Shown: piece after piece, positions 15,669 through 25,520 of the stretch | Numbering within the stretch: the first letter of the stretch is position 1 | Layout: each line of letters opens with the position of its first letter | Origin: Microbispora sp. NBC_01189 | Lineage (GTDB): Bacteria; Actinomycetota; Actinomycetes; Streptosporangiales; Streptosporangiaceae | Reading direction: 5' to 3' | Assembly (NCBI RefSeq): GCF_036010665.1 | Contig: NZ_CP108581.1 | Location: 4,879,501 to 4,943,500 of the forward strand | DNA length: 64,000 nt | Made by a program: the position numbers and the translations under genes | The notes under the pieces: model-generated | What the model was told of the DNA's origin: nothing | Database searches by the model: none | Seen by the model: the letters and a program-made list of their open reading frames with translations, nothing else

Positions 15669-16454
15669 ATGGCGGGTCAGGACGCGGTGCCGCGCGGCGC
15701 TGAGGACGAGTCGCGCGGCCCGCGCCCAGATCCGGGCGCCGTGCCACAGGAGAGCGCTGTCACGGAGGTGAGCATCGTGCCGCAGGGGAGTGCCGTCACG
15801 CAGCCGGGCACCGTTCCACCGGCGGGCACTGTTCCACAGGCGACGTCGTCTCCACACGGTCCCGCGAACCCTCCCGGACCACCTTCTTTCGTCGGTCCCG
15901 CGGGTCCTCCCGGGCCGCCCTCCTTCGTCGGTCCCGCGGGCACATCGCCGGGGGCTCCAGGACCACGTCCGGCCGGTCCCGCGAACGCGCGCCGCGCCCT
16001 TCCCCCGGGCAGGCCCGCGATCCTTCCTCCGGGCACCACCTCGATCCCTCCGCTGGGCGGGGGGTCCGCGTTCGGCCCCGGAGGGGCCGGGTGGAGCGCT
16101 CCCGGCTGGCGGGAAGCGGCGCCGCACTCCGCAGGCGCCCCTCAAGGCCCGTCCTTCCGGCCGCCGGGAGGCCTGCGCGGACGCCTGGCGGGCCGCCTGC
16201 CGCAGGGCCAGACCGGGCGGTTGATCACCGTTGGCGTCGTTTCGGCGCTCGTCGGAGCGCTCCTCGGCGGCGGTGTCGTGGCCGCCACCAGTCTGATCTG
16301 GGATCAGACGCACGCCGGGGCGAGCCGGGAGGCCGGCGGAGACCAGGACGGCCTGCTTCCTCGTGGCCGGAGCCTCCCGGGCGGGGAGGACGGCCGCCTG
16401 CCCCAGTGGTGCCGGCGCACCGAGAACGGCATCGTCTGCCGGCCGGGCGGCTGA
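15669..16454 (+). CDS. Proline/glycine-rich single-pass membrane protein
   Basis: 261 aa of unknown function. Residues 1-180 are disordered and rich in Pro, Gly and Ala, with a duplicated GPPSFVGPAG. A single membrane segment follows near 184-208 (LITVGVVSALVGALLGGGVV), then a short polar tail containing two cysteines (QWCRR and GIVCRPGG). ATG follows a good AAAGGGAGAT ribosome site. The 3' end is overlapped on the other strand by the readthrough frame of the HNH ORF. Confidence 0.65.
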   Translation: MAGQDAVPRGAEDESRGPRPDPGAVPQESAVTEVSIVPQGSAVTQPGTVPPAGTVPQATSSPHGPANPPGPPSFVGPAGPPGPPSFVGPAGTSPGAPGPRPAGPANARRALPPGRPAILPPGTTSIPPLGGGSAFGPGGAGWSAPGWREAAPHSAGAPQGPSFRPPGGLRGRLAGRLPQGQTGRLITVGVVSALVGALLGGGVVAATSLIWDQTHAGASREAGGDQDGLLPRGRSLPGGEDGRLPQWCRRTENGIVCRPGG

Positions 16455-17130
16455 GACGCCGTTCGCCCGGAGCCGCCGAGACCCCTGGGATCACAGCCAT
16501 TTTCGCGGGCGCCGTTTTTCTTTCGCCTGGAGAATCGCTCTCTGCTGCGAAATCAAAGGCGCTGTGATTTGTATTTGAATTCTTGTGGGGTCGACGAGAT
16601 TCGAACTCGCACTGTACGGCACCTAAAGCCGCGGTCTCCTGCCGTTGGACTACGACCCCTTTTTCTCTTGCCTTTCCTGTGAAATTCTCGGTATGAGAAT
16701 GGCAGTTCGGGCAGAGAAATCTCAGATTCTCTCTTCTGTTGTCCAGCCAGTTTCCGTTGACGTGGTCGACGTGCAATGTCAGCGATCGGCCCTGCCAAGT
16801 GCCGTCTATCTTACAGTCTGCGCACCGGTAGGAGACTCCGGCTTCGAGCAGTGCCCGCCGAAGCTTGGACGGCTTCTCGCGTGGGGCACCCGAGGGCTGC
16901 AGAACCAGCACGTCCGCCGGCAGCCTCCGTCGCGGTGACATCTGGCCCCGCCTGTGGGCCTGGCCGAGGAAGTGGGAGGTGTCTATACCGAAGTGCTTGA
17001 GGCGGCGGCTGATGTGGGCGTGACTGCCGCCCGACCACGAAACGCCGAGATAACGCAGCACGTCGGCGATGCTCGCGGCGTTGGCCGCCGCTTCGGCCAG
17101 TAGTTCGCGGGTGTACTTGTGCTTCGCCAT
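16225..17130 (-). CDS. HNH endonuclease ORF that reads in frame through a tRNA gene
   Basis: The conserved part is about 157 aa, encoded by 16660-17130. It has an N-terminal helix-turn-helix-like region (LAEAAANAASIADVLRYLG, then SHAHISRRLKHFGIDTSHF) and a zinc-bound HNH nuclease core with YRCADC, LHVDHVNGNWLDNRRENL and FLCPNCHSH. ATG 17130 sits 7 nt behind TACATT, which suggests a leaderless message. There is no stop codon before the tRNA gene at 16586-16659; the frame runs through the tRNA and stays open to 16225, overlapping the 3' end of the opposite gene. The true C-terminus is therefore uncertain. Such HNH proteins are often mobile or homing-type nucleases; its target is unknown. Confidence 0.72.
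   Translation of the reverse strand: MAKHKYTRELLAEAAANAASIADVLRYLGVSWSGGSHAHISRRLKHFGIDTSHFLGQAHRRGQMSPRRRLPADVLVLQPSGAPREKPSKLRRALLEAGVSYRCADCKIDGTWQGRSLTLHVDHVNGNWLDNRRENLRFLCPNCHSHTENFTGKAREKGVVVQRQETAALGAVQCEFESRRPHKNSNTNHSAFDFAAESDSPGERKTAPAKMAVIPGVSAAPGERRLSRPAGRRCRSRCAGTTGAGGRPPRPGGSGHEEAGRPGLRRPPGSPRRASDPRSDWWRPRHRRRGALRRAPKRRQR
16586..16659 (-). tRNA. tRNA with anticodon UAG (class I fold, would read CUA)
   Basis: I fold a complete cloverleaf. The acceptor is a perfect 7 bp GGGGTCG/CGACCCC. The D-arm has stem GTC/GAC with a C-A mismatch. The anticodon stem is GCGGC/GCCGT with loop TTTAGGT, so the anticodon is TAG (complement at 16623-16625). The variable loop is ACAGT, the T-arm is GCGAG/CTCGT with loop TTCGAAT, and the discriminator is A. 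CCA is not encoded. The anticodon suggests leucine, but bacterial tRNA-Leu has a long variable arm and this one does not, so charging is uncertain. It lies inside the open frame of the HNH gene. Confidence 0.8.
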
Positions 17131-17187
17131 GACCCGGAATGTATCGGCCGCCGCCGACAATTCTGTGACCTTCGCGAAAGGGGTGGA

Positions 17188-17655
17188 TCAGGAAATTTCC
17201 AGCTCTTTCACGAGGCGGGCGACGTGGCCGGTGGCTTTCACGTTGTAGAGGGCCTTCTCGACCTTTCCGTCGGCGTCGATGACGAACGTGGACCGGATGA
17301 CGCCCATCACGGTCCTGCCGTAGTTCGTCTTCTCGCCGTACGCGCCGTAGGCCTTGTGCACCTCGAGACCGGTGTCCGACAGCAGCGGGAACGTGAGCGC
17401 GTCGCGCTCGCGGAACTGCCGCAGCTTGGCCGGCTTGTCCTTGGACACGCCGAGCACCACGAGACCCTGCTCGGTCAGCGGGCCGAGGGTGTCGCGGAAG
17501 TCGCAGGCCTGCTTGGTGCATCCCGGGGTCATCGCCGCCGGGTAGAAGTAAAGGATGACCCGGCGGCCGCGGAAGGACTCCAGCGAGACCTCCTGGTCGT
17601 CGGCGTCGTTAAGGGTGAAGTCCGGCGCGGCGTCGCCGGGCTGGAGCCTGCTCAT
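17188..17655 (-). CDS. bcp: Thioredoxin-dependent thiol peroxidase (BCP/PrxQ)
   Basis: 155 aa peroxiredoxin that reduces hydroperoxides. The peroxidatic cysteine is in TPGCTKQACDFRD, with the resolving cysteine five residues later as in PrxQ; LQPGDAAPDFTL is the family N-terminus. I choose ATG 17655 because GGAGGA lies 5 nt upstream; an in-frame start at 17697 would add 14 residues without homology. Divergent from the DUF3618 gene. Confidence 0.94.
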   Translation of the reverse strand: MSRLQPGDAAPDFTLNDADDQEVSLESFRGRRVILYFYPAAMTPGCTKQACDFRDTLGPLTEQGLVVLGVSKDKPAKLRQFRERDALTFPLLSDTGLEVHKAYGAYGEKTNYGRTVMGVIRSTFVIDADGKVEKALYNVKATGHVARLVKELEIS

Positions 17656-17789
17656 CACGTCCTCCGGAAAAGGTGACCCGCGGCGATCGGCGGGCAAGCG
17701 ACAACCAAACTACCGGCTCGGCCGCTGTACGGGGCGACTGCCGGACCTGGCAGACTGATCACACACGAATACCACAGGAGGGGGATCGC

Positions 17790-25153: not shown

Positions 25154-25199
25154 GCGGACCTCGGAAAGGACGGATGCTGCACTGAACTATCGGGCATCC

Positions 25200-25379
25200 T
25201 CCCCCTCTGTCATCGGCGCCTGAGAGCTTCGTCCGATCTTTGCCGGACTTTCACCTTCGGCGAGGCCTCACGGCCTTCTTTCCAGAGGTCACCTGGCCCG
25301 CGCGGTCCTTTGCCTTGAGAGGTTCGCGGGGAGGGCTTGCTCCTTCAGGGGCCCTGACCGGCTGCCAGGACGCTCTCCC
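25200..25379 (-). promoter_or_regulatory. Tandem glycine riboswitch upstream of gcvT
   Basis: On the minus strand two aptamers follow each other. The first starts at GGGAGAGCG (25379) and contains GAAGGAGCAAGCC, CTCTCAAGGCAAAGGACCG and CCTCTGGAAAG. The second contains GCCGAAGGTGAAA, CTCTCAGGC and GACAGAGGGGGAGGATG (to about 25196). These are the conserved core pieces of the glycine riboswitch, which in gcv operons normally turns expression on when glycine is plentiful. A TAGGCT -10-like box lies at 25406-25411. Confidence 0.9.
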
Positions 25380-25520
25380 GCACGGGATGATCGGTGCGTT
25401 GCCAGCCTAGTGGGTTCGCCGCCGTCCCCGTAACCTGCCACGTCACCCGCTTTGTCCCACCCGCGGCGCCCATTCGTACCCCTAGCGTTAGGCTAGCGAT
25501 GCAACAGGCCGTGTCGGGCC

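Follow-up and report, generated by a model that had tools for sequence, protein, structure and literature searches.

Why does the reading frame of an HNH endonuclease gene in Microbispora sp. NBC_01189 run without a stop through a complete tRNA gene? The locus lies within a stretch of 64,000 nucleotides (nt) of contig NZ_CP108581.1 (positions 4,879,501 to 4,943,500), which was analysed as a whole and is here called the window; plain coordinates are those of the window. The frame, on the minus strand, is open from an ATG at 17130 (or a TTG at 17160) down to 16225-16227. As an earlier note made from the sequence alone had claimed, it crosses the whole of a tRNA gene, here a tRNA-Leu(UAG); the crossing was seen in the sequence and the tRNA was found by both ARAGORN and Rfam. 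Insertion of the nuclease at a tRNA had been offered in that note as one explanation, and after comparison of the loci it is the best reading. In the form that we favour, at a probability of roughly 70%, the gene would belong to a phage-related, free-standing HNH homing endonuclease which resides at tRNA-Leu(UAG) and co-converts the tRNA.

Linkage of the HNH gene to tRNA-Leu(UAG)

The HNH part of the frame matched PHROG 10822 'HNH endonuclease' with E 1.5e-50 and Pfam PF01844 with 20.6 bits, slightly below the cut-off of 21.4, and all of the catalytic and zinc core residues conserved in the alignment were present in the window copy. A match of the HNH part to ZorE scored only 25.9 bits against a cut-off of 600. 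Since the genome is GC-rich, openness of the frame alone is unremarkable. When position and frame were chosen at random within the window, the sequence was open for at least 25 codons at a frequency of 0.76 and for at least 145 codons at 0.34. Of 33 other tRNAs of the same genome with 450 nt upstream available, 6 were crossed in full by a frame already open at -450, which rules out the open frame by itself as evidence. Openness alone is thus not above chance; the conserved pairing of HNH and tRNA, and the frame kept in relatives, are.

Of 44 loci fetched from the taxonomic family of the host, a set in which several species appear twice, 40 had the HNH gene immediately 5' of a tRNA-Leu(UAG) of class I (with a short variable loop) and in the same orientation. 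The 40 comprise all 15 homologues from genome contigs (L002-L016) together with 25 of the 29 loci taken from the family search (L017-L045), the arrangement being kept even with a frameshifted HNH; one of the 29 (L045) had no such tRNA. In the family search HNH was detected in 37 of 150 genomes at E<=0.001, with many weak or partial matches (the weakest short) and broken copies, and in the class-wide search in 53 of 394 genomes at E<=1e-10. In all 21 newly fetched actinobacterial loci (L163-L183) HNH was followed within about 420 nt by a tRNA-Leu(UAG) of the same orientation, and 13 of these short loci also showed a peroxiredoxin gene, the upstream neighbour in the window.

The linkage was also evident in genus g85 (family f18), which we take to be Streptomyces, where HNH was found in 80 of 131 genomes. 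The anticodon loop lay 59-134 nt past the HNH match in 64 of the 67 genomes with both matches; the exceptions, scored as far, were G542, G515 and G564, the tRNA of the latter two being about 440 nt from the listed match. A further 13 genomes with HNH had no match to the tRNA pattern, and the count leaves out non-Leu pattern matches (TTAGGG[AG]CTCGCC and other stray ones), except in G542. By these comparisons HNH shows a tight linkage biased to tRNA-Leu, above all to UAG. The earlier note had proposed that homologous HNH-tRNA pairs elsewhere would make the arrangement a system rather than an accident; such pairs recur widely in actinobacteria and in viral contigs, and a system is therefore what they represent. 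As separate observations, many g85 genomes had two HNH matches in tandem ahead of the tRNA, with extra partial N-terminal repeats at some loci, and the anticodon loop of the tRNA-Leu(UAG) in locus L034 (genome G052) reads CCTAGGA, in which position 33 would be C, not U.

Phage and viral relatives

A search with the HNH query against phage records gave 193 matches, and 12 phages were inspected. tRNA-Leu(UAG) was the next gene after HNH in three of these (Maleficent, phiPsa347 and PPSC2). In SP22 a tRNA-Leu without stated anticodon stood next to HNH, in D69 an unnamed tRNA overlapped the HNH open reading frame (ORF) by 15 nt, and in Francesca, ESa2, B8 and S-CRM01 tRNAs were nearby; the record of V45v66 carries no annotation. 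With the single window protein as query no relatives were found among viral sequences, and an alignment was therefore used, from which the best 80 of at least 509 relatives (at least 600 stretches) were taken. A tRNA was present in 73 of these 80 viral contigs and within 250 nt in 68; the adjoining tRNA was a tRNA-Leu in 49 and a tRNA-Leu(UAG) in 27. Leucine accounted for 58 of 101 adjacent tRNAs versus 63 of 389 other tRNAs in the viral contigs (p 8e-16). In six viral contigs (L223, L229, L237, L241, L249 and L251) the HNH ORF stopped 10 nt into the next tRNA, like the bacterial loci described below. The D-arm pattern of class I tRNA-Leu had at least 125 matches in at least 120 viral stretches, and 107 of those 125 belonged to tRNA-Leu genes, every one of them short. 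A quick tree of 96 HNHs placed all 45 actinobacterial rows in one supported group together with a single viral row, and the simplest reading of this tree would be few transfers followed by long residence at one locus.

Nested frame in relatives

The frame was compared in 33 family loci, deduplicated by flank and including the window; the opposite-strand class II loci, L044 and L045 were left out. Beyond the tRNA, 19 of the 33 carried a stretch resembling a ribbon-helix-helix (RHH) domain, and in 15 of these 19 HNH, tRNA and RHH stood in one open frame, 13 of which ended after the RHH (L041 and L042 were counted as in frame though the stop lies inside the RHH). The frame was shifted in L003, L014, L033 and L035. 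Among the 14 loci without RHH, 10 stopped at U8-A9-G10 of the tRNA, 3 slightly later, and only the window copy was open. The difference between 15 of 19 and 1 of 14 has a Fisher p of 6e-5, a value which ignores the kinship of the loci. The earlier note had held that homologues ending in a normal stop before the tRNA would count against it. In part this is what was found, for most RHH-less loci end inside the tRNA and the HNH match in g85 ends well ahead of the anticodon loop, yet most RHH-bearing loci read through. A TGA lies inside the HNH of L031.

Could this be an ordinary overlap, in which HNH settled beside the tRNA, the frame stays open merely through the high GC content, and the RHH is translated independently from its own start, so that no fusion protein is made? 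The control tRNAs with an open frame allow for it, the RHH stretch frequently contains a Met codon of its own, and the four shifted frames fit it as well. In 13 loci the median ratio of nonsynonymous to synonymous substitution (dN/dS) was 0.23 for HNH and 0.33 for RHH, and the linker, at 0.91, was without amino-acid constraint. The RHH stretch itself scored weakly in Pfam (RHH_1 E 0.068, ParD_antitoxin E 0.14, both under the cut-off); in Foldseek it gave ParD matches with probability 0.94 and a template-modelling (TM) score of 0.76 to the target, but with E 2.4, and none at E<=0.001. The structure model of relative P0002 is good only at its two ends, with a mean predicted local distance difference test (pLDDT) value of 54.6. 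On these scores the domain beyond the tRNA may be an RHH (ParD-like) DNA-binding domain.

Against an ordinary overlap stands, besides the contrast between loci with and without RHH, the phase of the frame. The distance from the HNH motif to the tRNA was 0 mod 3 before 75-nt tRNAs (8/8) and 1 mod 3 before 74-nt tRNAs (7/7), and because the HNH-to-tRNA phase compensates for tRNA length the frame is kept across both. Among 120 listed database homologues, moreover, 26 read through the tRNA, and 66 ended in GP or GS, the residues expected with a stop at U8-A9-G10 (the end classes, 66 + 26 + 29, sum to 121, one protein being in two classes). An RHH-like end was recognized by eye in 24 of the 26 read-through homologues; a motif search, which was too narrow, gave 13 of 26. 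We therefore regard the ordinary overlap as unlikely. To judge from the frames, in part of the relatives the tRNA gene is nested in one protein gene. Phase compensation and constraint on the RHH would speak for read-through translation, tempered by the unconstrained linker and the relatedness of the loci.

In the window copy the 5' end of the tRNA falls exactly at a codon boundary of the HNH frame, and the CEFESRRPH stretch of the predicted protein tail, remarked upon in the earlier note, is the T arm of the tRNA read as protein. After the linker and a KMAV remnant, the tail has no conserved domain and no longer resembles the relatives, L004 and P0002 among them; the database protein P0009 has the same shortened end. 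On this comparison, the window copy is one that has kept the HNH core and the tRNA and has lost the RHH.

Turnover of tRNA-Leu(UAG)

The tRNA at 16586-16659 was called tRNA-Leu (TAG) by ARAGORN and scored 50.6 bits with RF00005 (cut-off 29). It is 74 nt long with a 5-nt variable loop, and lacks the long variable arm (class II) of the canonical bacterial tRNA-Leu. The genome gave 55 tRNA matches, none of the other 54 reading UAG by ARAGORN, and a class II query of the genome for a second, canonical tRNA-Leu(UAG) returned partial matches only, the best at E 0.29. The window tRNA thus appears, from these searches, to be the sole tRNA gene of the genome for one leucine codon. In the same genome the tRNA-Leu genes for CAG and GAG are class II and those for UAG, UAA and CAA class I; the class I UAA and CAA genes lie outside the window at G000:C1:1948861-1948933 and G000:C1:5822480-5822554, and their closest viral tRNA-Leu genes are 81-85% identical. 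A second leucyl-tRNA synthetase (LeuRS) was considered as a possible explanation of class I tRNA-Leu. TIGR00396 had two matches in most family genomes among the matches listed, and these paired matches are probably two pieces of one LeuRS gene. A separate second LeuRS match was observed in G067 (two contigs) and in some other family genomes, again among the matches listed.

In the 150 family genomes the class I UAG pattern was found in 92 and the class II pattern in 23, with none carrying both (p 1e-11; the zero overlap of the two lists was counted by eye). The peroxiredoxin gene is the constant upstream neighbour of tRNA-Leu(UAG) in the synteny comparison. Of 23 class I loci that lack an intact HNH (L119-L135 and L137-L142), 22 had it upstream in the same orientation, L127 being the one where it was not found. 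The same position was seen in 9 of 10 class II loci (L149-L158); in L153 the gene was on the other side. The two classes are mutually exclusive beside the same peroxiredoxin, and therefore, as read from these loci, one structural class of tRNA-Leu(UAG) has replaced the other at one locus. The presence of HNH at this fixed site is patchy, and HNH-less alleles keep the peroxiredoxin followed by the tRNA.

Within g85, ARAGORN found a UAG tRNA in 114 of 115 fetched loci (not in L512), and these 114 genomes held 89 distinct tRNA-Leu(UAG) sequences of both classes, a number which depends on the tRNA ends called by ARAGORN. In 27 usable genomes of 30, where the CAG types were read by eye, the 3' halves of UAG tRNAs were of 18 types with a mean identity of 0.69 versus 4 types and 0.91 for CAG, among the matches listed. 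Judged by these sequences, tRNA-Leu(UAG) genes are hypervariable, and their structural class switches as well. Class I was found in 33 of 60 g85 genomes with full HNH versus 5 of 50 without (p 7e-7), or 33 of 65 versus 5 of 43 with a more sensitive HNH search, and one common class II type occurred in 3 of the 60 with full HNH versus 21 of the 50 without (p 3e-6). A tree was made from the g85 peroxiredoxins (present upstream in 76 loci, long enough in 74, used in 69); on this weakly supported tree HNH underwent at least 20 changes and tRNA class 15. A paired test gave 5 supported pairs, with 2.9 in the expected way and 0.1 in the opposite.

These changes could also be read without a role for the nuclease: class I tRNA-Leu would have come about at the locus itself when the variable arm was lost, and HNH would merely have been attracted there. 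Class I tRNA-Leu(UAG) is indeed spread more widely in the family than HNH (92 versus 37 of the 150 genomes), and the class I UAA pattern occurs without HNH involvement in 65 of the 150, including three with class II UAG (G003, G100 and G122). An origin in place is nonetheless rather improbable in our judgement, given that a single genus contains a number of dissimilar types of both classes and that class I tRNA-Leu with the same core is frequent in viral contigs.

A possible mechanism

The homing endonuclease reading would work as follows. The HNH gene sits between the peroxiredoxin gene and the tRNA, fused to the 5' end of the latter. The nuclease would cut a tRNA-Leu(UAG) locus without the element, and repair would copy HNH plus its own diverged but working tRNA into the cut locus; HNH may decay later, while the swapped tRNA would stay. 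An unprocessed transcript could yield the HNH-RHH protein, and maturation of the tRNA would leave a non-stop HNH mRNA, holding nuclease output low. Such competition between tRNA maturation and nuclease output, to which the earlier note had pointed, would follow from the anatomy, and the same idea has been proposed for the tRNASec inside selB. Cutting, homing, co-conversion, immunity of the carried tRNA, competition with RNase P and read-through translation are all steps that we infer.

Several observations weigh against the homing reading. HNH also occurs beside class II tRNA-Leu(UAG), and in 3 of the 29 fetched family loci (L039, L040 and L044) it is convergent, just past a class II gene. The association of HNH with class I was not significant after tree correction (median p 0.25). 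No tRNA is annotated in phages Gilson and Atu_ph07, and 7 of the 80 viral contigs had none in the locus. No HNH match was found beside the class I UAA or CAA tRNA-Leu of this genome, and the closest viral tRNA to the class I UAG gene is only 74-76% identical.

A stronger form of the homing reading is a cleave-and-replace tRNA element: the nuclease would destroy the recipient's only tRNA-Leu(UAG) gene and supply an uncuttable working substitute, with repeated swaps including class II to phage-type class I, and with the tRNA within the nuclease's own frame. We advance this form tentatively, and doubt it somewhat more than we believe it. That HNH-RHH with its nested tRNA is instead a domesticated, unselfish switch kept to tune the supply of tRNA-Leu(UAG) is very unlikely, for all the anatomy shared with selB holding tRNASec (PMC8124441, in the part available) and the likeness of the RHH to ParD antitoxins, which are repressors, since a gene so patchy in the family, at times broken, and with so many state changes on the g85 tree is too unstable for a needed regulator.

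Transfer RNA genes are taken as conserved; in the present case what is seemingly the only tRNA for a sense codon appears to be turned over by a mobile nuclease, and the turnover extends to a change of tRNA structural class. The tolerance of leucyl-tRNA synthetase for a short tRNA-Leu and the evolution of tRNA identity thereby become testable, and the nested arrangement makes the competition of tRNA processing versus translation measurable.

Comparison with known systems

Some tRNA introns carry homing endonucleases, as in the cyanobacterial tRNA-Leu(UAA) group I intron. They would share with the proposed element a tRNA-Leu gene as target and differ in that here there is no intron and the nuclease abuts an unsplit tRNA. 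For SegB and the T-even tRNA region the reference is reportedly Brok-Volchanskaya 2008. The papers cited below by accession were available in part, and statements about them refer to those parts. Closest in behaviour is SegB of the T-even phage tRNA region (PMC13096335), likewise a free-standing homing endonuclease in a tRNA gene region, which moves or amplifies tRNA genes. SegB is of the GIY-YIG type and phage-borne, whereas the present nuclease is an HNH with a bias to tRNA-Leu and resides at a single locus of the bacterial chromosome, where it overlaps the tRNA. The same source describes a defence that cuts the variable loop of tRNA-Tyr, which may be one reason why a long variable arm would be lost.

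Closest in anatomy is the tRNASec gene (selC) nested in selB of Alphaproteobacteria, described as the first case in bacteria of a tRNA gene nested within a protein ORF (Mukai 2021, PMC8124441). There, too, the tRNA lies inside a protein ORF and its processing would leave a non-stop mRNA, but the selB extension is a C-terminal tail, whereas the HNH relatives have a conserved domain beyond the tRNA. The HNH case also involves an elongator tRNA, tRNA-Leu, and its protein is a nuclease that has relatives in phages. The HNH loci would represent a second type of nesting of a tRNA gene within a bacterial protein gene, now with a conserved domain beyond the tRNA.

HNH genes are also found in horizontally acquired mycobacterial tRNA clusters, for which a phage origin has been suggested (PMC6582537, PMC9569102), and their occurrence there together with a tRNALeu(TAG) with short variable loop has already been noted (PMC6582537). 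In those clusters the tRNAs are extra copies beside a normal tRNALeu(TAG), whereas here the single chromosomal tRNA-Leu(UAG) is the short one. In the open-licence PubMed Central literature we found no HNH-tRNA-Leu(UAG) fusion and no class I tRNA-Leu in this taxonomic family, which does not imply absence from print; the available parts of PMC9437257 and PMC7609411 mention neither.

Features of the window

Coordinates are collected in Table 1. The helices of the N-terminal part were placed on the window protein through an ungapped 157-residue match to P0002.

Table 1. Features of the HNH-tRNA-Leu(UAG) locus in the window.
Feature	Position	Strand	Basis or remark
Thioredoxin-dependent thiol peroxidase (peroxiredoxin)	17188..17697	-	NF006960 166.5 bits (cut-off 140); PF00578; synteny
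HNH endonuclease coding part, 157 codons up to tRNA 5' end	16660..17130	-	Alternative start TTG 17160
N-terminal three-helix, helix-turn-helix-like part (residues 8-46)	16993..17109	-	Modelled helices 8-16, 21-28 and 36-46 of relative P0002
HNH core with CxxC and DH...N...CPNCH (residues 103-144)	16699..16824	-	Invariant columns of alignment A1
Class I (short variable loop) tRNA-Leu, anticodon UAG, no encoded CCA	16586..16659	-	ARAGORN; Rfam RF00005
TAG at tRNA positions 8-10	16650..16652	-	Stop at which the HNH ORF ends in most RHH-less relatives; not in the HNH frame of the window copy
Anticodon TAG	16623..16625	-	
In-frame linker and first residues (KMAV) of putative lost RHH-like domain	16489..16585	-	Comparison with L004 and P0002
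Remainder of open frame, no counterpart in RHH-bearing relatives	16225..16488	-	Partly antisense to plus-strand ORF 15669-16454

Elsewhere in the window, tandem glycine riboswitch aptamers were found at 25197-25390 on the minus strand (Rfam RF00504, 51.1 and 66 bits).
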